From a virus, in IMG/VR virus record IMGVR_UViG_3300037189_003484, positions 1-23,381 of that record: a stretch of DNA of 23,381 nucleotides, one strand, 5' to 3'. Shown here one piece after another: positions 2,991 to 21,033 of this stretch. How positions within the stretch are numbered: position 1 is the first letter of the stretch; each line of letters begins with the position of its first letter. Under the pieces are notes generated by a model. It was not told where the DNA came from. It was given only the letters and a program-made list of their open reading frames with translations, and did no database searches. Made by a program: the position numbers and the translations under genes.

Positions 2991-4405
2991 TAGTCGTCAT
3001 TTTCATTTTCATCTACTGCAGTAGAAATATTTTTAGAAGCAGGATATTTATCAAGTATTGATTTTATCTTAGGATTAAGTTTTGTGCCAGTGATAGTTGC
3101 AGCAGATGGCGTAACTATATTATTTTTATAGTTAGCCCCTGCATCTACTTTAGGCAGTACTACCTTAGATCCTGGAGCAGTTTTAGCTATTTCACCTTTG
3201 TAAATATAATCCTCAGCTTGTTTGATATAACCACTTAAAATTTCTTGATACTTATCAGGATTAGATTCAAAGTATGTTGTATACTGCCCTGCTGGATATT
3301 GCACAGCCATAAGTTCTTTAGCAGCATTTAGCACTTTAGCGTTTACTTTTGCTAAGTCTAAAGCACCTGTACCTTTAGCTTTAGCTTTTGCAGCTGCCGT
3401 AGTAGTATCATATGTAGCTGCTGCTTTAGCACCTTCACCAAGCAATGCATTTTTATCAGCCACGTTTTTGAATTTAATCTCTTGAGATTGTTTAAGTAAA
3501 CCATCACGACGTGAACGTTCTGAATTATACATTGTTTGATCACCAGACAATTCTGCTTGTCGCATAGCTTGATCAGCACGACCAATTTCAAAGCCCATAT
3601 TGCGAATGTCTTTAGCTGTAGCTCTGTATTCTTTTTCCCCAGCCGCTTTAGTTGATAAGTAGTTTGTTGCTGCATCTTTAGCACCTGGACCAAAGTACTG
3701 TGAGGTATTACCTAAAAATCCAGCAGCCGCAGCTAATCCTGCTTCTGCACCAAGACGTGATCTGAATGCTTCATTTTCTTCTTTGTCTTTATCTAGTTCA
3801 GCACGTTGTTCTGCAGCGATATTTTTTATACCGTATGAACCACGAAGTTTAGCCTGTTCATCACGGATTTGTTCGATACTTTTATATGGATTTAATTCTA
3901 ATTGTTTTTGTATTTCAGCATCTTCATAAAGAGTTAGGTCCTTAGGGTTAAAATACTTCCCAACTGGATTTTTAAGATATGCTCCAGCAGCAAACCCAGG
4001 AACATCGCCACCTTCATCAAATGCAATAATCCCACCGCCAGCGTAGCTAGCTTCATTAAACATATCACCTACTGGTAATTCCATTAACCCACCTTCCGCT
4101 GCTTGGACTGGTGGTTGTTGTGGCATAGGCATTTGCGGTGCTTGTTGTGGCATAGGCATTTGCGGTTGTTGTAACTGCGCTATACCTTGTGGTGCCATTT
4201 GTTGTTGAGGCGCAAAAGTCTTTTCCAACACTGTAGGTTGTTGACCTGGATTACCTTGAGGTTTGCTTAAGCGGTCAATACGCATCCCTGCTAATAGAGC
4301 AATGTCATGAGGTAGTTGGCCTTGTTGTACCATTTGAGCCAATAGCTGTTTATTGCCGTTAACCGACTTAACTAGGGTACCTACTTGATCTAAATTTGGA
4401 TTCAT
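2990..4405 (-). CDS. Putative ejection/internal virion protein (471 aa)
   Basis: Function is inferred from position: it sits between two other large ejection-type genes. The N-terminus (about 1-50) is helical and contains LPHDIALLAGMRIDR. A Pro/Gln/Met-rich low-complexity segment (about 60-105) follows, then the motif YAGGGIIAFDEGG (about 121-133). The rest is Ala/Lys/Glu-rich and mostly helical, with likely coiled coil, and the tail is very acidic (DENENDD). No enzyme motif is visible. GGATAATATT-like purine-rich sequence just before the ATG at 4405 gives a ribosome site (GGAATAAT), 7 bases after the upstream stop. The stop overlaps the next start as TAATG. The AGGG motif and Pro/Gln block are shared with the 552-residue protein nearby. 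Existence of the gene is secure; its role is an inference. Confidence 0.85.
   Translation of the reverse strand: MNPNLDQVGTLVKSVNGNKQLLAQMVQQGQLPHDIALLAGMRIDRLSKPQGNPGQQPTVLEKTFAPQQQMAPQGIAQLQQPQMPMPQQAPQMPMPQQPPVQAAEGGLMELPVGDMFNEASYAGGGIIAFDEGGDVPGFAAGAYLKNPVGKYFNPKDLTLYEDAEIQKQLELNPYKSIEQIRDEQAKLRGSYGIKNIAAEQRAELDKDKEENEAFRSRLGAEAGLAAAAGFLGNTSQYFGPGAKDAATNYLSTKAAGEKEYRATAKDIRNMGFEIGRADQAMRQAELSGDQTMYNSERSRRDGLLKQSQEIKFKNVADKNALLGEGAKAAATYDTTTAAAKAKAKGTGALDLAKVNAKVLNAAKELMAVQYPAGQYTTYFESNPDKYQEILSGYIKQAEDYIYKGEIAKTAPGSKVVLPKVDAGANYKNNIVTPSAATITGTKLNPKIKSILDKYPASKNISTAVDENENDD
4116..4166 (-). repeat. 27-bp-period repeat in Pro/Gln/Met-rich segment
   Basis: Two identical 24-bp blocks at 4116-4139 and 4143-4166 are separated by 3 bases, giving a 27-bp period. 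They encode repeated PQMPMPQQ units in the 471-residue ejection-type protein. Confidence 0.85.
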
Positions 4406-6300: not shown

Positions 6301-7959
6301 CTATGCAGGTACAAAATTATTTGGATTAATTTTTCTACCTTGTTTTTTAGTACCTGTACGAGCGCTACGTACTTTATCCATCATTTTATATAAATGTTTA
6401 GCGCCAGCTTTTGTTGAGCCGTTACCTAAATGACTTACTACATCAGCTGGGATTACAAACTCACCATCTGCCAAACGAGCAGGTTGTTTAGAGCCAATTG
6501 TAGCAGGGATAGAGTCACTCATGCCATCACCAGCGCCATCTAAATATCCGCCAGGTAACGTCTTGCCACCTTTAGCTAAGCTATGGATACCACCACCCAT
6601 TGCTTTTGATACTACTCTACCCATTGGGTCTGTAATTGCATTTTGTAGCATTGTTTGTAATGGGTCTGGTGTTGGCGCTTGAGGTGCAGCTTGTTGTGGC
6701 ATTTGTGGTTGTTGTGGCATTTGTGGTTGTTGTGGCATTGGTGCCTGCCCTGCCTGAGGTGCACCCATTGGCATACTGCTTGGTAGTTGTGCTATTCCTC
6801 CTGGAGCTGCACCCATTTGAGGAATACTAGGAATTTGACCACCAGCATCAAAAGCAATCATACCGCCACCAGCAAAACCTGATGCTCCGTTTCGTGCTAG
6901 TTGTTGTAGTCTTCCCAAACCATATCCCTCTTGCGAAATAGCAGGGCCCTGTGTATTGTCTTGCGGTTCATATACTTCAGTCATACCGCCACCAGCATAA
7001 CCTGGAGCCTTGTTAAACCCTGGATAAGGGTTTGTATCACCAAAATATGAATACTCTGGAGACCCTGCCGCACGTAGAGCTGCTTGTTCTTCTGGTGTTG
7101 GAGTACGTGGTTTGCGGTCTTGTGCTGAATACGGACCTTCATACTTCATCTTGTAGCTGTCATCTTCAGGGATTTTATATTGAGGAGGTTTAATAGCCAT
7201 TAATGGTGATGCTACTGTTAACGCATCTTGCCAACCAATATCACCTGATTTCCAATACTTCATAGGGTCTGAGAATACTTCTTTAGCCCCAGTACCAATA
7301 TCACCAAATGAGTAAGGAGAAGCATTACCTAGTAAGTTTGTAGATTTTACTCCAGTTCCATATAACTTAGATAATCCCATAGACTGTTCAAAAGCCGCAG
7401 CTCCTGGGATTGCATTTGTAGCTGCTGTTGTACCAATAGTACCTATAGGCGCATTAGTAGCTAAATTAAATGAATTTGCCATGCCAACTGGCGCCCCTGC
7501 TACAGCCCCTGTCCCTACAGCCCCTGCTGTGCTAGCAGCTGGGTTTAGTCCTACTGTAGATACTTGTGGAACTGCCGCGGTTTTACCAATAGTACCTAAA
7601 CTTTTACCTAAACTTGATCCACCATAGCCACCAAGACCTGCGGTTAATCCTGACATTAAGTCACCGCCTGATAGAGCAAAACCTGCTAGACCTGTAGCAA
7701 AACCAGCACCCAATGCTGACATACCTAAACCAGCTGGGCCCAACAACATACCTAAACCGATAGGGGCAACTGCACCTAAGATATCATCAAAGAACCCTGC
7801 TTCTGGAAGTCCGGTATGTGGATTAATTGTTAGCGAGCCACCATGTGCCATAGCTAAGTTTTGTAAGCCCGCTACCTCTTTAGGGGTGACGTGCATAAGC
7901 ATCGTGTCTTTACCACGACCTAAACTTGCTAAGCCTTCTGCTAGTTGCTGAGTTGCCAT
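6301..7959 (-). CDS. Ejection-type virion protein with conserved N- and C-terminal phage domains (552 aa)
   Basis: The N-terminus has GRGKDTMLMHVTPKEV and then NPHTGLPEAG, a stretch I recognise from internal virion proteins of many uncultured phages. A long Gly/Ala/Leu hydrophobic region follows (about 57-112), suited to membrane insertion. The centre carries GYAGGGM and GFAGGGMIAFDAGG motifs and a Pro/Gln/Met block. The last 100 residues (453-552) form a conserved module with LADGEFVIPADVVSHLGNG and a basic tail. No active site is visible. AAGGAT upstream of the ATG at 7959 serves as ribosome site; the 40-base gap before it is the largest in this half of the window. I infer that it leaves the capsid early in infection and helps build the trans-envelope channel. 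Confidence 0.85.
   Translation of the reverse strand: MATQQLAEGLASLGRGKDTMLMHVTPKEVAGLQNLAMAHGGSLTINPHTGLPEAGFFDDILGAVAPIGLGMLLGPAGLGMSALGAGFATGLAGFALSGGDLMSGLTAGLGGYGGSSLGKSLGTIGKTAAVPQVSTVGLNPAASTAGAVGTGAVAGAPVGMANSFNLATNAPIGTIGTTAATNAIPGAAAFEQSMGLSKLYGTGVKSTNLLGNASPYSFGDIGTGAKEVFSDPMKYWKSGDIGWQDALTVASPLMAIKPPQYKIPEDDSYKMKYEGPYSAQDRKPRTPTPEEQAALRAAGSPEYSYFGDTNPYPGFNKAPGYAGGGMTEVYEPQDNTQGPAISQEGYGLGRLQQLARNGASGFAGGGMIAFDAGGQIPSIPQMGAAPGGIAQLPSSMPMGAPQAGQAPMPQQPQMPQQPQMPQQAAPQAPTPDPLQTMLQNAITDPMGRVVSKAMGGGIHSLAKGGKTLPGGYLDGAGDGMSDSIPATIGSKQPARLADGEFVIPADVVSHLGNGSTKAGAKHLYKMMDKVRSARTGTKKQGRKINPNNFVPA
6692..6738 (-). repeat. 18-bp tandem repeat, about 2.6 copies
   Basis: The unit tgttgtggcatttgtggt occurs at 6692-6709 and 6710-6727, with an 11-base partial copy at 6728-6738. 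It is in frame and encodes PQQPQM units in the 552-residue protein. Confidence 0.9.
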
Positions 7960-10628: not shown

Positions 10629-11003
10629 TTATTTTTTATTTTTTACATAGAACAGACTGCGCTCACCGAATAAGTAGAATCCAATGACAGAAGCAAAGTT
10701 AGATACTTGCTCATTAACTACCCCATTACCCACTAACGCTAGGTAGGCCCATGTCGATAACACAATTATACCAATAGCTGGTCGCATTAGTCGAATGATT
10801 GCTTCTACCCAAGGATAACTAGGATTACCACCGCCAGCTTCATTCATAGTTTTAAAAAACTCTAGGTCAATCTCTTTCATCTTTGCATACTGCTCGATGG
10901 TTGCAGGTTTGAATTGGTCTGGTGCAATGAAACGATTGATTAAAGACTTACCTAAGTCTACTGCTACTGGGCCTAAAGCCGCTAGGATTGTAATCGGGTC
11001 CAT
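10629..11003 (-). CDS. Holin, GTA-type three-helix family
   Basis: 124 residues with the layout of the 'holin of 3TMs, for gene-transfer release' family: a hydrophobic N-terminus (about 3-25), a cytoplasmic linker with acidic helix, then WVEAIIRLMRPAIGIIVLSTW leading into a second membrane segment (about 72-94) and a third (about 100-120) ending in the GERS motif and a basic tail (VKNKK). The RLxRP and GER motifs are usual for this family. It would form inner-membrane holes that release the endolysin encoded just upstream. The ATG at 11003 overlaps the endolysin stop as TAATG, so the pair is probably translated together. Confidence 0.85.
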   Translation of the reverse strand: MDPITILAALGPVAVDLGKSLINRFIAPDQFKPATIEQYAKMKEIDLEFFKTMNEAGGGNPSYPWVEAIIRLMRPAIGIIVLSTWAYLALVGNGVVNEQVSNFASVIGFYLFGERSLFYVKNKK

Positions 11004-11416
11004 TATAGTGTCTTTCCTTCTTGAAAGTCAGCAAGTGTTAATCCGCCTGTATATTGGCAATGAGCTAGCTCTTTAAATTTTGTCCAGCGCCCAGCCCATT
11101 CAAGCCCTACGCTTTCCGCAATCTCACCACATTTTGTAAATAACGCAGTATCGTTCCACATTGCTTTACCGTTAACTAAAGGCACAAAATCAAACGCAAC
11201 CCTCCAATTATGATAGCTTTTGCCTGCCGATGCGTTAGTTACCTTTTTTCCAGGCAAAGTACGGCCTTGTGCGTATAACGCATTTTGTGACTCTGCATCT
11301 CTGTAAGTTGACGTAATTAGCACATCAATATTGTGTTTGGCGCAAGAATATATAAAACGCTCGCACATTGTTTTGACTCTAGGATGCAGGTCTTCTAGTT
11401 TACGTGAGTTAATCAT
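11003..11416 (-). CDS. Endolysin, M15 (VanY/L-alanyl-D-glutamate-type) zinc peptidase
   Basis: A 137-residue single-domain M15 peptidase that would cut peptide stems of peptidoglycan at lysis. The zinc site is visible: SYHNWRVAFDF gives H69 and D76, and KELAHCQY gives H119, with E116 as the likely catalytic base. STYRDAESQNALYAQGR (36-52) is the usual substrate-side motif. There is no signal peptide, so a holin is needed, and one is encoded next. I chose ATG 11416 because it overlaps the upstream fibre stop as TAATG; a start at 11434 would add six residues inside the fibre gene. The exact bond cut (D-Ala-D-Ala or L-Ala-D-Glu) cannot be told from sequence. Confidence 0.92.
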   Translation of the reverse strand: MINSRKLEDLHPRVKTMCERFIYSCAKHNIDVLITSTYRDAESQNALYAQGRTLPGKKVTNASAGKSYHNWRVAFDFVPLVNGKAMWNDTALFTKCGEIAESVGLEWAGRWTKFKELAHCQYTGGLTLADFQEGKTL

Positions 11417-12999
11417 TATGCTGTACGATTCCACATATAGACTACAACGTATGGTTGTAGGTTAGCGTTAGTGCCACTTACACCAGAAGAAGCAGTTGTA
11501 AATGAGTGGTTATGGTCTGTTATATTAGCCCCAGTTAGCCAGCCGTTATTATCATTATCAGTAGACGCTGAACCTCGAGCATTAACACGTCCACTATTAC
11601 CAAATGGACCAGTCCCTGTTTCTCCCCAACCGCTATCATGTTGGTGAGTTGCACTTTGACCACCTGTAGTTCCTGTATGAGTATGTGCTACAACTACTGC
11701 ATCTGCACTACCACCTGTTGCACCTGCTGCAAACCCGCCACCATCTCCAATCAATACTCTACCTGCACCAAATGCCACCCAAGTACCAAAGCCAAATAAT
11801 GTAGCAGGGTTAGTTGATACTGTTGAAGTGTATATTGAACCTACCGGATGCAATGTTTGAATTACTGTAGTTGCAAAAGCGGTAGTAGCTATTTGAGTAG
11901 TGTTAGTACCAGAAGCAGCAGTAGGAGCTAAAGGAGTTCCTGCCAATGTTGGACTTGTTGATAGCACAATAGAGCCTGAACCTGTACTTGATGTTACCCC
12001 TGTACCTCCGTTAGCTACTGGAAGCGTACCTGTTACACCTGATGTTAATGGTAAACTGGTGCAATTTGTTAGTGTTCCGCTTGATGGAGTGCCTAATACG
12101 GGAGTAACTAAAGTAGGGCTGGTAGATAACACATTTGAGCCTGAGCCAGTACTTGATGTAACGCCTGTACCACCATTTAAAACACCTAAAGTTCCAGAAA
12201 TACCTGTTGATAGTGGCAGACCTGTACAATTAGTTAATGTGCCTGATGTAGGTGTGCCTAATAGCGGAGTAACTAATGTAGGGCTTGTTGCACGAACTAC
12301 TGAGCCTGTGCCCGTTGCGGTTGTAACACCTGTACCACCTGATAAAACAGGAATAGCAACGTTAAAAGTAGGGGTAGCATTAACAGTTAATGTATCAGCA
12401 GAAGCATCACCTAAGGTTGTATTACCTGTTGAACTTAATGTTGTAAATGCACCAGTGTTTGGGGTTGTGGCCCCTACAGTACCGTTGTGAGCACCAGTTG
12501 TACTGCCTGTCAACGCAGCTGTAATTGTACCCGCGGCAAAGTTACCTGATGCGTCTCTGAGTACTAGTGTTTCAGCTACGTTAGCTGATGAAGATGATTT
12601 ACCTACATATTTAAAATCAGCCAGTACTGTATCGTAGTAGGCTAAATATATTTCGCCAGCTGATACTGTAAGCCCTGTCGATACAGATGTTTTTAACACT
12701 ATATTAGCATTTGAACCGTTAGCAACAACATAAATTTTGCTTGATGCTGGAGCTACAATATTACGAGATACACCAGGGGTGCCTGTAATTCTAAGTACCG
12801 CATTACGTGATTGGTCAGATGATCCATTAAAATCAGTAAGTGTTACATTACCAGCGGTAACATCAATAGTTGAGCTACCCGCGATAGCCTGTTCAATTAA
12901 GGTGCCTAAGTTAGTATTGTTTGTTATGCCCCAGGTGTTATTCTGGTCACCAACACCCATTAACTCAATGCCTAATAAAGGGGAGTATGTACTTGCCAT
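11416..12999 (-). CDS. Tail fibre with GGTG repeats and gp10-like C-terminal domain (527 aa)
   Basis: The N-terminus (about 1-130; MASTYSPLLGIELMGVGDQN, then NNTWGITNNTNLGTLIEQAI) is a conserved phage fibre head that probably attaches to the virion. The shaft holds three 55-residue repeats, each opening with GGTGVT; the third ends in TNTTQIATTAFATT, a common fibre motif. The C-terminus (383-527) starts LHPVGSIYTST and includes FGFGTWVAFGAGRVLIG, the pattern of the gp10 C-terminal/collar-like tip, with His-rich loops (AHTHT, THQHD, DHNHS) that may bind metal and hold the trimer. It likely contacts the host surface. AAAGGAC precedes the ATG at 12999. It is followed by the endolysin. Confidence 0.88.
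   Translation of the reverse strand: MASTYSPLLGIELMGVGDQNNTWGITNNTNLGTLIEQAIAGSSTIDVTAGNVTLTDFNGSSDQSRNAVLRITGTPGVSRNIVAPASSKIYVVANGSNANIVLKTSVSTGLTVSAGEIYLAYYDTVLADFKYVGKSSSSANVAETLVLRDASGNFAAGTITAALTGSTTGAHNGTVGATTPNTGAFTTLSSTGNTTLGDASADTLTVNATPTFNVAIPVLSGGTGVTTATGTGSVVRATSPTLVTPLLGTPTSGTLTNCTGLPLSTGISGTLGVLNGGTGVTSSTGSGSNVLSTSPTLVTPVLGTPSSGTLTNCTSLPLTSGVTGTLPVANGGTGVTSSTGSGSIVLSTSPTLAGTPLAPTAASGTNTTQIATTAFATTVIQTLHPVGSIYTSTVSTNPATLFGFGTWVAFGAGRVLIGDGGGFAAGATGGSADAVVVAHTHTGTTGGQSATHQHDSGWGETGTGPFGNSGRVNARGSASTDNDNNGWLTGANITDHNHSFTTASSGVSGTNANLQPYVVVYMWNRTA
11870..12345 (-). repeat. 165-bp tandem repeat in fibre shaft (three copies, last one diverging)
   Basis: The region encodes 55-residue units beginning (S/N)GGTGVT and containing LVTPxLGTPxSGTLTNCT. 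The corresponding DNA recurs at about 11990, 12155 and 12320, spaced 165 bases. Copies 1 and 2 are full length; copy 3 diverges after its first 25 or so residues. Confidence 0.85.
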
Positions 13000-13035: not shown

Positions 13036-14004
13036 TTATCCTTGAAAGTCGTCAACATTTACCCAGCCTGGGACTTGTCCGTCATTTACTGTAGACCAGG
13101 TTACTGTTTGAGAATCATTTACTGAGTTCCATCCTGGTACTTGTGAGTCATTTATTGCAGCCCAAGTTAATAATTGTGAGTCATCTATTGGGTTCCAGCT
13201 TGGTGTTTGTGAATCATTAATCTTAATCCAACCGCGTGGGAACTGTTCATCTAATAATGCAAACGCTTCTATGATTGATGTTTGGAACTGGGCTGTTACT
13301 GAAGGTGTATCCGCAATGCCTATGTTTTCTTGAATACTAAATAACAATATTAGTATTCCATTATTAACATCTGCTACATTTAAGTTTTCTGTAAGTGTAA
13401 GTAAAAAAGCATTAGAAATTGTTTTTATATCATCTAGCGAAATATTTTCTGCTTTACTTTGAGTAAAGTTAGCTAGTATCGATATAGCATCCCCCAATGT
13501 CATATCTTCTGTTCTTGCTACATTAAACTGGGCAGTAATTGCTGGGGTGTCATTAAGGTTTACATTCTCTATCCGTGCTATTATATATTGAGATATTACT
13601 GCGTTTAAGTCTGCCATTGTAATTGGCTCAACCCGCGTTTGAAGCGCCGCAAAAAATGGTACAGGCGTATCGGCAACTGTGATTGGTTCTGTTCTTGATT
13701 GCGCAAAGTTTGCTCTGATTATAGGCGTATCGTTCGGCAATAAGTTTTCTGTTCGGCTTAATGTGTATTGCGCAGATATTGTACGCGGATCATTCATTGT
13801 AATAAATTCGTTAACAGTAGCAAAATAATCACCTTCAGTTGCATCAATGTCATCTACAACAATATTCTCTGCTTTTGATTGTAAGAATGTAGATAACTGT
13901 GTGTTAGCATCAGCCATCCCAATGTTTTCAGACAACGAAAGATTTATCGCCGTTCCAGCAAGAGAAGAAAATGGGGTTTGAGCAAAGGCAGATATACCAA
14001 ACAT
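13036..14004 (-). CDS. Two-tier repeat protein in the fibre cassette (322 aa), function unknown
   Basis: After a short N-terminus (MFGISAFAQTPFSSLAG, a leader I have seen on other phage tail proteins) the protein is made almost wholly of repeats. Residues 26-245 are eleven exact 20-residue units, each starting with Glu and having Asp at unit position 7 in all of them (consensus ENIxxxDxxxxxxxxFxxSRT); residues 246-258 are a shortened twelfth. Residues 259-322 are 11-residue units opening with Trp (WxxINDSQxPG), five full and one of nine residues. Such regular spacing suggests a beta-solenoid or elongated shaft followed by a Trp/Asp-rich tip. It lies between a fibre chaperone-like gene and a second fibre, so a receptor-binding or fibre-linking role is inferred. 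No clear ribosome site is seen before ATG 14004, 3 bases after the upstream stop. Confidence 0.85.
   Translation of the reverse strand: MFGISAFAQTPFSSLAGTAINLSLSENIGMADANTQLSTFLQSKAENIVVDDIDATEGDYFATVNEFITMNDPRTISAQYTLSRTENLLPNDTPIIRANFAQSRTEPITVADTPVPFFAALQTRVEPITMADLNAVISQYIIARIENVNLNDTPAITAQFNVARTEDMTLGDAISILANFTQSKAENISLDDIKTISNAFLLTLTENLNVADVNNGILILLFSIQENIGIADTPSVTAQFQTSIIEAFALLDEQFPRGWIKINDSQTPSWNPIDDSQLLTWAAINDSQVPGWNSVNDSQTVTWSTVNDGQVPGWVNVDDFQG
13039..13230 (-). repeat. Protein-level 11-residue tandem repeat, five units plus a 9-residue last unit
   Basis: Thirty-three-base units encode Trp-led repeats with the core (I/V)(N/D)D(S/G)Q; the last unit has VDDFQG and ends the protein. 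The array begins immediately after the shortened twelfth 20-residue unit. Confidence 0.9.
13231..13929 (-). repeat. Protein-level 20-residue tandem repeat, 11 units plus a partial unit
   Basis: Sixty-base units encode 20 residues with invariant first Glu and seventh Asp. Units are diverged at DNA level but keep exact length through eleven copies. Confidence 0.9.
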
Positions 14005-14007
14005 TAT

Positions 14008-14451
14008 TTATATTTTAATCCACGTTTCAGTAGGAATTACGGGCCATGTTATATTACCTTCTACTGGATACACAGCGTACTGACGCACTTCATTACGGTA
14101 CTGGTCAAAAGCTAGTTTGTTATCAAGGTAAGGATTACTTAAAGCAGGGTCACTTACGCTAGGAATTTGTGTCCAGTCTGTTTGTTGAAGTAGACCTACT
14201 GCTGTTGCTTTATTTTCGTCTGCTGTTGGAGGCACAGGTGGTATTGGCGTGGGTGTTGGAATATCCGCTACAACCCATTGAATATTATCCCATGTACAAG
14301 TTTGAGTTTCTGAATCAAATGTAGGATTTTCAATCGTAGTAGAATCGGTTGGGACAATATATTCACCAGGTTCTAATGGTGATTCTTGGCAATCCCAAAT
14401 ACCAGCATACTCTTTAGTAACATTATCAAATAAATAGACTGTTAACGACAT
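14008..14451 (-). CDS. Tail fibre assembly chaperone-like protein (Phage_tail_APC type)
   Basis: The 147-residue protein has a beta-rich N-terminus (MSLTVYLFDNVTKEYAGIWD), a Pro/Thr linker (PTPTPIPPVPP, about 65-75), and a helical C-terminal half with ATAVGLLQQTDWTQIPSV, a Tyr/Arg-containing helix (FDQYRNEVRQYAVYP) and a final ITWPVIPTETW. The 'LLxxTDWTQ...YRxxxR...WPxxP' pattern is that of phage tail assembly chaperone proteins that follow fibre genes. I infer that it helps fold or trimerise a neighbouring fibre, or forms a tip adhesin. AAGGA lies before the ATG at 14451. Confidence 0.75.
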   Translation of the reverse strand: MSLTVYLFDNVTKEYAGIWDCQESPLEPGEYIVPTDSTTIENPTFDSETQTCTWDNIQWVVADIPTPTPIPPVPPTADENKATAVGLLQQTDWTQIPSVSDPALSNPYLDNKLAFDQYRNEVRQYAVYPVEGNITWPVIPTETWIKI

Positions 14452-14460
14452 AATATTTCC

Positions 14461-14940
14461 TTAATATTTAACGCACATAAGAACGGCTGAACCTGCCGCT
14501 AAGTTGGCTGTGCTTGCGCCTGTGCTTACATCCCCAGTAGTAGCGGCAGACGATGAGGTTACTCCACTCCCTGCCGCCGCAGGGCTGGCTAATGATTGAG
14601 CGGCAGACCTAAGATAACTATGGGTATGGCTAATAACTTGACCAACTGTTGCTGTACCTACGTTTGCATTGGCTTGTGTTGGTACATATCCTGCCGCAAA
14701 CCAAGGCATGCCAAAAGTTGTTGACCCATCACCAACACCCCATGTAGTTCCAATAGCGGCAAATAAAGCGGCATAAGTTGTTCTAGATAAAGTTGTCGCA
14801 GAAGTTGGGCAGGTTAAAAATCCACTAGGAGGAGTAGTTCCTGCAAAACTAATAATTGAACCTGCTGGTAAATATGAAGTAGGTTGAACTGTTCCATCTG
14901 GAAATGTAATTCCACTACTACCATTTAATGTAATTGGCAT
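14461..14940 (-). CDS. Phage tail collar domain protein (159 aa)
   Basis: The first 25 residues (MPITLNGSSGITFPDGTVQP) are a common attachment peptide of short phage fibres. A tail collar domain follows: AGSIISFAGTTPPSGFLTC (about 26-44), LSRTTYAALFAAIGTTWGVG and GDGSTTFGMPWF. The ISHTHS stretch and a Ser/Ala/Gly-rich C-terminus follow, ending VLMCVKY. Such proteins form the distal, trimeric part of fibres and often touch the receptor. AAGGA precedes the ATG at 14940. It sits between the Gly-rich tip gene and the chaperone-like gene. Confidence 0.88.
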   Translation of the reverse strand: MPITLNGSSGITFPDGTVQPTSYLPAGSIISFAGTTPPSGFLTCPTSATTLSRTTYAALFAAIGTTWGVGDGSTTFGMPWFAAGYVPTQANANVGTATVGQVISHTHSYLRSAAQSLASPAAAGSGVTSSSAATTGDVSTGASTANLAAGSAVLMCVKY

Positions 14941-14949
14941 GATTTATCC

Positions 14950-15594
14950 TTAATATTCAATCATTACAACACCACCAATACCACCTCGAGCCGCGCCACT
15001 TTGACTAAGCCCAGCAGTCCCAGCACATTTTACAGATGTAGTTGACCATGCTTCACCTGAAGTTGTGGCTGAAACAGTTTGTTGTCCAGTCAAAGGCACA
15101 GGAATTACACTTGGATATACGAGATTGCCTGTTTTTAATGCTGTTCCAGTTGAAACTGTGCCTGTTCCATTTGCGCCACCAATAGATCCAGAACCACCTG
15201 CCCCACCTGTTGCAGAAACAAAAGAACCAAAAGATGAAGTGCCGCCAGCAACACCATCGCTGGCTCCCACTGCTCCACCTGTGCCAACTGTAATTGTAAT
15301 TGCTCCTGATAATCCTGTAACATAAGCAATTGCATATCCGCCATAGCCAGGCTGACCCAGATTGCTATCATTTTGTCCACCACCACCACCACCAACCACA
15401 GTAACCCTTGCTTGCGTAACTCCTGCAGGCGGAGTCCATGTGCCTGATGAAGCAAATATAACAGTTGAAAATCCTGCGTACGTGGATAAAGTTCCTGATG
15501 TATTAGGCAAAGTTAAAGTTGTTGATCCAGCTAATGCTGGGGCTTGTAAAGTGATCGATCCACTTGTATCGCCTGCTATTACGACTGATGACAT
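14950..15594 (-). CDS. Glycine-rich fibre tip / receptor-binding protein (214 aa)
   Basis: The N-terminus (about 1-40; VVIAGDTSGSITLQAPALAG) is a widely shared fibre leader. Residues 51-73 contain GTWTPPAGVTQARVTVVG followed by a run of seven glycines, the signature of phage glycine-rich domains. The rest alternates Gly-rich loops with short strands and ends GGVVMIEY, as is usual for the family. Comparable Gly-rich adhesins (for example S16-type gp38 tips) bind outer-membrane proteins through exposed Gly loops; that specific role is inferred here. A GGAGTGAG ribosome site precedes the ATG at 15594. Confidence 0.85.
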   Translation of the reverse strand: MSSVVIAGDTSGSITLQAPALAGSTTLTLPNTSGTLSTYAGFSTVIFASSGTWTPPAGVTQARVTVVGGGGGGQNDSNLGQPGYGGYAIAYVTGLSGAITITVGTGGAVGASDGVAGGTSSFGSFVSATGGAGGSGSIGGANGTGTVSTGTALKTGNLVYPSVIPVPLTGQQTVSATTSGEAWSTTSVKCAGTAGLSQSGAARGGIGGVVMIEY

Positions 15595-18399: not shown

Positions 18400-18819
18400 C
18401 TAAGAAATTCTAATAATTGCATTGTTTGCGTCGTTTGTAGGGAATGTCACAGTAAATGTACTTGTGGCGGTTTTATCTTCACCAAAGTTTAGTACTGCAA
18501 CCGCTGCATTTGTTGATGCGTTATATATCAAGGCACCTCTAGTTGTAAAGCTAGCAGGATTCCAAGTGGAATTTGCAAATGTAACCACAGCTGTTGATCC
18601 GCTTAATAGCGGAGATACTTTAGTTAATGTATTTCCACCCGCTGTGTAGCCAGTGCCTGATATTTCATTGGTCGTTGTATATACCGTAGTATCGGCAGAA
18701 AGATTGGCAGCTTCGGTGTATAACGCAATCTTGTATACAAATGCTGAACCTACATCAAAGTCTTCTAACCCTTTGAGTACATTTAACTTAAATATGTTAC
18801 ATAAGTTTTGCGTTATCAT
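18400..18819 (-). CDS. Conserved phage structural protein of unknown function (139 aa)
   Basis: The protein has a conserved pattern: YKIALYTEAANLSADTTVY, GTGYTAGGNTLT, FTTRGALIYN, VAVLNFGEDKTATSTFTVTF and a final IIRIS. Strands alternate throughout, so a single beta-sandwich or jelly-roll is likely. I have seen this pattern beside the 203-residue type of gene in other uncultured phages, so the two may act together in the neck or tail. The ATG at 18819 overlaps the adaptor gene stop as ATGA. The stop is TAG, unlike the TAA used by most neighbours. Confidence 0.78.
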   Translation of the reverse strand: MITQNLCNIFKLNVLKGLEDFDVGSAFVYKIALYTEAANLSADTTVYTTTNEISGTGYTAGGNTLTKVSPLLSGSTAVVTFANSTWNPASFTTRGALIYNASTNAAVAVLNFGEDKTATSTFTVTFPTNDANNAIIRIS

Positions 18820-19445
18820 TGAACAGGAATCCTAACTTGACCATTACGATAAGCATCACGACGGTTTTTACCATCACCCAACTGTTTGAGTAAGAACATC
18901 GCATCGTCATAGCGTTTTTGGTAGCCAGCTATAACATCTGGTTCACCCTTCATGTACGTATAAGCTTCCAATAAAGACCCATACAATAGAGCGGAATCAA
19001 AATTGTCACCGAGCCAAGTAGTGCCAGCAGTAACAATAGACTCAGGATAGTAATAGTAATGCAGCTCAACATTATAGTTAGAATCGGGTGTTGGTCCAAG
19101 AATAAAAGTATTCTGATCGAAAAGGGCATAATATTCAGGTAGTGCTGTATCTGTAGGTTGTGGATATGAAGCACGAATAAAGTTTACGTCTTTGTCTAAC
19201 AAGTATGTATAGTTGCCCGTTGCATCAATCACAGCAATAGAAAACGTTGCTAACCAATCTGTAGGGCATGTAAGGTACTTATTATTAACTGTTAGTGTGC
19301 CAGTTACGTTTTTACGGATAGCAGGGAATTGAACGCTATTATAGATGCGTTGTTCTGCTTGTTCGATAAACGTATTAATATCTGCAGTCTCAAACTGATT
19401 TTCAGTATAGCTTTCAATTTCCGAAACTAATTGAGAGTAGTTCAT
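18816..19445 (-). CDS. Head-to-tail adaptor protein, SU10-type (209 aa)
   Basis: The sequence follows the SU10 adaptor family: an N-terminal helical pair (MNYSQLVSEIESYTE, TFIEQAEQRIYNSVQFPAIRK), a strand block (GTLTVNNKYLTCPTDWLATF), then LPEYYALFDQNTFILGPTPD with VELHYYYYPESI, and C-terminal helices with DSALLYGSLLEAYTYMKGEP. The end is GQVRIPVQ. Twelve such subunits usually sit under the portal and receive the nozzle and fibres. Upstream AAGG gives a ribosome site. The fold pattern matches that of the 242-residue protein three genes upstream, suggesting an ancient duplication. Confidence 0.82.
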   Translation of the reverse strand: MNYSQLVSEIESYTENQFETADINTFIEQAEQRIYNSVQFPAIRKNVTGTLTVNNKYLTCPTDWLATFSIAVIDATGNYTYLLDKDVNFIRASYPQPTDTALPEYYALFDQNTFILGPTPDSNYNVELHYYYYPESIVTAGTTWLGDNFDSALLYGSLLEAYTYMKGEPDVIAGYQKRYDDAMFLLKQLGDGKNRRDAYRNGQVRIPVQ

Positions 19446-20304: not shown

Positions 20305-21033
20305 TTACCTAATAAACTGCATGCGTGGTGCTAAACGAATAGCTGCTTTCTCTCTATCTTCATCAGCGGCTAATTGAAATGCTTGTTCATATTCAGCTTT
20401 AAGGAACTGAGCTCGCTCCATGCCTTCTGGTATTTTTTGTGATAGATAAAATGCTAATCCTGCAACCATTGCAGGTAAGAAACGAAACGGGATATCTTGT
20501 GTATGAGACCCACCATCGCCTGCATCTTGAATTCGACGTAAACGGTAGTAGAATAAAGTGTAGTAGTTGCTTTGTTCTGGGGCAGGCCACAAATTAACTT
20601 GTGGGTTTTTAATGCCTGTTACTGGGTAATCTGCACCTGATTGGCGATTAATCCAGATTTGAATTGGGCGCCCTTGAGCGTTTTTATTAGGAATCGTAAT
20701 GTATGTAGACTCACTAATACGCGTGATATTAATGTCTGTTTGGTTTTGACCTGTGCCTGTACGTACTACATGGTCTAGCAAATCAATTGTATCTACAGGT
20801 AAGTCATAAACAATTTGACCTTGAACTAATGGGATAGTACCTTGCTCAACAGTCCATAAATTAATGCCGCGATTTGCCCACTCGATAGTGAGTAGATTTA
20901 AACTACGACGTGCTGTTTTAAGGTCGTAGCCAGTACGCAGTTCAGAGCCGCAACGCTCGAACGCTTCCTCTACTAGATTGTTTAAATCTAGATTAAAGGT
21001 ACTTGTGCCTGATACTGTTGTTGTGATCGCCAT
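20305..21033 (-). CDS. Head-to-tail adaptor / tail tubular protein A-like (242 aa)
   Basis: The protein has an N-terminal helical part (LNNLVEEAFERCGSELRTG, then ARRSLNLLTIEWANRGINLW), a strand block (GTIPLVQGQIVYDLPVDTID), then PIQIWINRQSG and VNLWPAPEQSNYYTLFYYRL, and C-terminal helices (FLPAMVAGLAFYLSQKIPEG). This is the layout of T7 gp11/P22 gp4-like adaptors. It would bind the portal and start the tail. It shares a helix-strand-helix layout with the 209-residue adaptor. The ATG at 21033 lies 3 bases after the stop of a 41-residue gene. Which of the two adaptors touches the portal cannot be decided here. Confidence 0.8.
   Translation of the reverse strand: MAITTTVSGTSTFNLDLNNLVEEAFERCGSELRTGYDLKTARRSLNLLTIEWANRGINLWTVEQGTIPLVQGQIVYDLPVDTIDLLDHVVRTGTGQNQTDINITRISESTYITIPNKNAQGRPIQIWINRQSGADYPVTGIKNPQVNLWPAPEQSNYYTLFYYRLRRIQDAGDGGSHTQDIPFRFLPAMVAGLAFYLSQKIPEGMERAQFLKAEYEQAFQLAADEDREKAAIRLAPRMQFIR

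Follow-up and report, generated by a model that had tools for sequence, protein, structure and literature searches.

The window analysed here, 23,381 bases in length, is an entire virus record, and its source is a freshwater-type virus of bacteria. One of its genes, at 13036–14004, encodes a protein of 322 residues in which two short repeat systems follow each other, and this raises the questions of what kind of structure is built in this way and what determines how many units it carries.

Repeat architecture of the gene product

The initial annotation described eleven units of exactly 20 residues counted from residue 26, a cut twelfth unit, and then five units of 11 residues and a sixth of nine that reaches the end of the protein at residue 322. 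Register and shuffle analysis found this layout exact to the residue, and the following features were assigned.

13036..14004, minus strand: whole gene of an anchor–shaft–tip protein of 322 aa, with ATG at 14004 and stop at 13036; full-length relatives are known
13930..14004, minus strand: residues 1–25, conserved N-terminal piece with the motif MFG.SAFAQ.PF.SL, a probable virion anchor
13270..13929, minus strand: shaft of eleven 20-residue E/D units, residues 26–245, from register analysis and family segmentation
13810..13869, minus strand: unit 2, residues 46–65, divergent, with its own family consensus (..D.nstAG.F..)
13630..13689, minus strand: unit 5, residues 106–125, specialised, with V.YFAAL..R kept across the family
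13231..13269, minus strand: cut twelfth unit of 13 residues (246–258), leading into the tip (E..xLLD...xG)
13039..13230, minus strand: W/D tip, residues 259–322, 11+11+11+11+11+9, with a 22-residue super-period
13063..13218, minus strand: tandem repeat of 66 bases in the tip-coding DNA, accompanied by a weaker row of 33 bases

The 25 N-terminal residues of the window protein open with MFGISAFAQTPFSSLAG..., and their motif is near-invariant in set A2 (59 members) and common to proteins with other shafts. The autocorrelation of residues 26–258 reached z = 12.8 at lag 20, against a null maximum of 5.1 (2000 shuffles, largest z over all lags), and the units run without a single insertion or deletion, all 11 having Glu as their first and Asp as their seventh residue. 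In residues 259–322, the 22-residue period (z = 12.6) outscored the 11-residue period (z = 10.2), the largest null value being 5.6; each tip unit starts with Trp, and the last one stops exactly at the stop codon. The protein contains no cysteine. Tandem repetition at the DNA level is confined to the tip within this gene. The 20-residue units are old, sharing a mean pairwise identity of 29% in amino acids and 44% in DNA. Unit 5 is conserved far above the other shaft units across the family, as if marking a contact or a kink.

Genomic setting

The genes surrounding 13036–14004 lie on the minus strand and form a tail and fibre module, which includes the following.

11003–11434, minus strand: VanY/M15 endolysin
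11416..12999, minus strand: next gene, fibre protein with a C-terminal Gp10_C domain (PF21939)
14008..14451, minus strand: preceding gene, fibre-assembly-like, with weak matches to tail-fibre assembly and tail fibre families
14461–14940, minus strand: Collar (PF07484) gene
14950–15594, minus strand: Gly-rich protein (Gly_rich_2)
18816–19445 and 20305–21033, minus strand: two different proteins matching SU10_adaptor (PF24175)

The E/D gene is thus encoded within a tail-fibre cassette, beside fibre genes, and its neighbours of the Collar, Gp10_C and fibre-assembly-like kinds support a tail-fibre setting, in line with the initial annotation. The arrangement is conserved: among the matches listed, the gene after the E/D gene was Gp10_C-like in 143 of the 159 relatives with a readable downstream frame, a likeness that may owe most to the N-terminal part that they have in common. 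By eye, the length of this downstream protein has no obvious relation to the number of E/D units. The best named relatives of one adaptor were from Pelagibacter phages HTVC023P and HTVC027P (31–32% identity). Elsewhere in the window, short in-frame tandem repeats at 6691–6743 and 4110–4172 give Met/Pro/Gln-rich stretches in two neighbouring structural genes.

A family of E/D proteins

A first scan returned 18 loci, among which L001–L004 are full length and 47–49% identical to the window protein; the later profile scans each covered the best 80 of at least 217–311 relatives. A scan with the N-terminal motif, which is independent of protein length, gave at least 80 loci, and 80 were examined. 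The periodicity is kept in relatives, as had been anticipated: in the first 68 complete proteins, unit spacings of up to 30 residues were exactly 20 in 585 of 630 cases, 21 in 42 and 18 in 3. The unit consensus of these 68 proteins was E94 N55 (I/V/L)(T/N)(L/M)A D88 S.T I T A Q F78 L Q S61 I T, with E1, D7 and F15 conserved at 94, 88 and 78%, and the tip consensus was W98..I78 N/D D/N. Q87.

Searches of the window protein against Pfam, PHROG and PDB returned no adequate match and no known fibre family; GAPES3 (Pfam, E = 0.09), phrog_29691 (E = 0.11) and a 16S rRNA methylase chain (PDB, E = 0.22) were at chance level and were rejected. Scans of the 59 A2 members gave a few weak, scattered PHROG matches without fibre annotation (best 4e-6) and scattered weak Pfam matches to unrelated families. 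The A2 profile found one flagellin hook IN motif chain in PDB (E = 0.00095), with no single stretch passing. In tblastn searches of the phage collection, P0001, P0005 and the L172 protein had no matches, and P0004 matched DSL-LC04 alone (E = 0.02). We found no description of the E/D repeat or of a four-unit step in the literature, which is not proof of absence from print, and the available passages of PMC10611076 do not discuss the E/D gene. We conclude that the family is real and well conserved, that its phage fibre-type proteins had no earlier assignment, and that their length follows an unusual rule. One five-unit member (L444:3822–4244) lies on a contig that was binned as a Saccharibacteria MAG and is probably a phage contig; this may be a host hint or a binning error.

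Unit number changes mostly in steps of four

The number of full E/D units (n) was counted in 167 distinct complete E/D proteins from the matches listed, all of up to 700 aa and carrying the N-terminal motif; 35 proteins with another shaft and 12 with no W block were left out. The counts are given below, with those that remained once each n had been thinned at 80% identity.

n = 6: 1 protein (1 after thinning)
n = 7: 7 (7)
n = 8: 7 (6)
n = 9: 1 (1)
n = 10: 1 (1)
n = 11: 116 (97)
n = 12: 12 (10)
n = 15: 20 (17)
n = 19: 2 (2)

Among these matches, 145 of the 167 proteins had 7, 11, 15 or 19 units, 19 had 8 or 12 and 3 had other numbers, and none had 13, 14 or 16–18. A length-blind sample, the 35 distinct E/D proteins among the 80 loci listed from the N-terminal motif scan, agreed with this, with n = 7 (4), 8 (2), 11 (21), 12 (3) and 15 (5). 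One parsimony reconstruction contained 28 changes of n, 22 of them multiples of four (binomial against 1/4, p = 4e-9; 11>15 thirteen times, 11>7 four times, 12>8 three times and 11>19 twice), on a quick tree made from the N-terminal piece and a C-terminal stretch, with few columns and many weak forks, in which recombination could inflate the number of changes. On an earlier tree, the starred branches alone forced at least seven changes of the n = 15 label.

The step of four has exceptions, namely L008 (n = 6), L373 (n = 9), L095 (n = 10) and L444 (n = 5, by reading). On other contigs, E/D-like units (SDTATGADA...) and a tip are fused to long, different N-terminal parts; in this fused group, the unit numbers of L005 and L010 are four apart and those of L006 and L009 eight apart, and L018 (12), L016 (11) and L204 (20) have no common remainder. 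No clear four-unit super-period was seen inside the n = 11 proteins (similarity 0.71, 0.68, 0.63, 0.73 and 0.41 at lags 1–5). The new observation is that unit number is quantised, mostly in steps of four. The suggestion in the initial annotation that unit number could vary between related phages therefore holds as regards variation itself, with the amendment that it proceeds mostly by four rather than freely.

An exchangeable shaft between anchor and tip

The 80 loci listed in the N-terminal motif scan comprised 44 E/D shafts (by a loose rule), 16 proteins with a W/D-type end on another shaft, 15 others and 5 that were cut off. The alternative shafts that precede a W/D-type end often consist of V..TGV.A.G.VG repeats. 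Anchor and tip thus stay constant and the shaft can be exchanged, because both ends recur with other shafts. At the sequence level the protein has an elongated repeat shaft and a distinct C-terminal domain, and the earlier view of a shaft with a distinct tip gains from the finding that the W/D tip also terminates proteins with other shafts.

Larger relatives were seen as well. In a giant protein of 1258 aa (L256:916–4692), no fewer than 35 E/D units follow one another, and the protein also has a non-repetitive insert and a cysteine-bracketed W/D tip. Eight further loci (L006, L009, L012, L013, L014, L017, L018 and L204) encode long proteins, of up to at least 1975 aa and several of them truncated where the locus ends. 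Their N-terminal parts are beta-rich or Gly-rich, in some cases with a YWVGG motif, and the proteins close with E/D-like units and a W/D tip.

The tip varies in size too. In the 167 proteins from the matches listed, the number of Trp per tip was 2 (12), 3 (16), 4 (106) or 6 (33), and never 5. Changes reconstructed by parsimony include 4>6 (20 times), 4>3 (10 times) and 4>2 (5 times); since 4>3 changes occur, even Trp counts dominate, yet a single step is also found. In some relatives the tip is bracketed by two cysteines, one four residues before the first Trp, within the cut twelfth unit, and the other at the extreme C-terminus. Among the same matches, both were present in 18 of the 167 proteins, neither in 149 and a single one in none; both are also present in the 1258-aa protein, which lies beyond this set. 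The pair needs two changes on the earlier tree, and therefore represents two origins on that tree, not eighteen. Because this matched pair brackets the tip, the most economical interpretation is that the tip's two ends are in contact, probably through a disulfide in the relatives that carry it.

A proposed model and its alternatives

Considering the above results, we think it probable that the E/D protein is a virion fibre with an anchor, a shaft and a tip, in which the shaft is built in four-unit blocks. In a podophage-like virus, the gene product would serve as a minor tail fibre or as a receptor-binding arm. Its short aromatic N-terminal motif would dock the fibre on the tail, the E/D units would form an ordered shaft with a strictly kept unit register, and the W/D block would form a compact end domain, mostly of 22-residue pairs with its two ends close together, which may bind the host surface or a partner. 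The shaft would fold, or hold register with a partner, by blocks of four units (80 residues), and viable length variants would therefore lie mostly four or eight units apart.

The step of four might instead be an effect of DNA copying, by 240-base duplications or by exchange of whole cassettes between phages, and not of protein structure. Direct duplications of four-unit blocks were indeed seen in L077 and L183 (DNA identity 0.73 and 0.80 at a lag of 80 aa), where in L077 units 6–9 were copied to 10–13, and on the weak tree, long and short alleles could have recombined between lineages. However, L136 gained its four units through a run of single-unit copies, with five near-identical units (DNA identity 0.73–0.92) where its relative L048 has one, and with DNA identity of 0.85 at a lag of 20 aa versus 0.58 at 80. 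In L158, which has eight units more than L003, the gain was irregular and several places were altered, and the 12-unit group too steps to 8. That the same step was reached by different routes indicates that the total unit number is constrained, which is evidence and not proof, because exchange of cassettes could spread a few original events. We therefore regard the copying explanation as unlikely, and the results favour selection on the total number of units over a quirk of copying.

AlphaFold2 models of the monomer had a confidence that was low throughout, too low for the models to be usable (pLDDT 32.9 with 4 sequences and 41.4 with 59), and hydrophobic moments over the units peaked near 90 or 180 degrees depending on the stretch, which did not separate helix from strand. 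The solenoid that the initial annotation had suggested is accordingly not supported; it is still a possible fold, with the low pLDDT counting against it in that a simple cis solenoid might be expected to fold in silico. If the shaft depends on contacts between the chains of a homomeric fibre, low-confidence monomer models would likewise be accounted for. The low confidence, together with units rich in S/T/N/Q, would equally suit a flexible, largely disordered spacer that carries a tip as the only folded part, but a 20-residue register nearly free of indels in relatives, the conservation of E1, D7 and F15 and the retained identity of individual units such as unit 5 are not expected of such a spacer, and we judge it improbable. 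From these regularities we infer an ordered shaft. A somewhat stronger case, though one that we still doubt, can be made for another part of the virion, such as a whisker, a nozzle extension or a fibre-assembly scaffold: Pfam recognised no receptor- or carbohydrate-binding domain in the window protein or the 59 A2 members, and the E/D gene mostly travels with a second fibre gene, whose product could bind instead. Against this, strong conservation of the tip as the C-terminal module extends over unlike shafts, which is often so for the distal domains of fibres.

Within the preferred reading of a fibre with a shaft in four-unit blocks, a more specific proposal is tentative, with a chance that we place a little short of even. 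The shaft may be an undescribed fold whose indivisible module is a set of four 20-residue units, 80 residues in all, so that length would change only by whole modules whatever the copying route, and the tip would grow mainly in 22-residue pairs, with a disulfide latch in some lineages.

Comparison with known systems

In repeat proteins, the number of units usually drifts one by one, and the choice of length is therefore usually invisible. In the E/D proteins, a range of shaft lengths is sampled by a large natural family, and the lengths that are allowed lie mostly on a four-unit ladder. If this ladder reflects structure, the family would lend itself readily to testing the rules of fold or register in viral fibres. 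A group of phage structural genes without an assignment would then gain a likely role, and its W/D tip, being portable, would serve as a recognisable marker for fibre genes of uncultured phages.

In choline-binding and pentapeptide repeats alike, one unit or coil has close to 20 residues, and choline-binding repeats also contain Trp. The E/D protein resembles both in length, and the former in its Trp repeats as well, but its motifs differ from those of either. No match to the choline-binding (CW) repeat or to the pentapeptide repeat was listed in Pfam among the 59 A2 members, and by eye the consensus lacks a five-residue period.

The adenovirus fibre shaft is a triple beta-spiral of 15-residue repeats with a conserved Gly/Pro turn. 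The E/D shaft is similar in having tandem short repeats with conserved positions, and in adenovirus the repeats set the length of a receptor-binding fibre. In contrast, the E/D protein has 20-residue units with an E/D pair, its consensus has no conserved Gly or Pro and so does not fit a triple beta-spiral repeat, and its length changes mostly by four units; we know of no four-unit step in the adenovirus fibre. The PDB search found no sequence match to the adenovirus fibre shaft.

With trimeric phage tail fibres and short tail fibres of the T4 gp12 / gp10 type, the E/D protein shares a repeat shaft with a distal domain and has Collar and Gp10_C neighbours, whereas the protein itself does not match those families. 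A close parallel is the hypothetical protein WJZ48131.1 of phage DSL-LC04 (OR003939, 59268–60398; L100:1150–2280), which occupies the same gene slot and ends in the same W/D tip. Directly after its gene stands one whose product shares 51% identity with the window's Gp10_C protein over the first 123 residues of the latter. Unlike the E/D protein, however, WJZ48131.1 has a different N-terminus and a shaft of V.VTGVQA.G.VG repeats.
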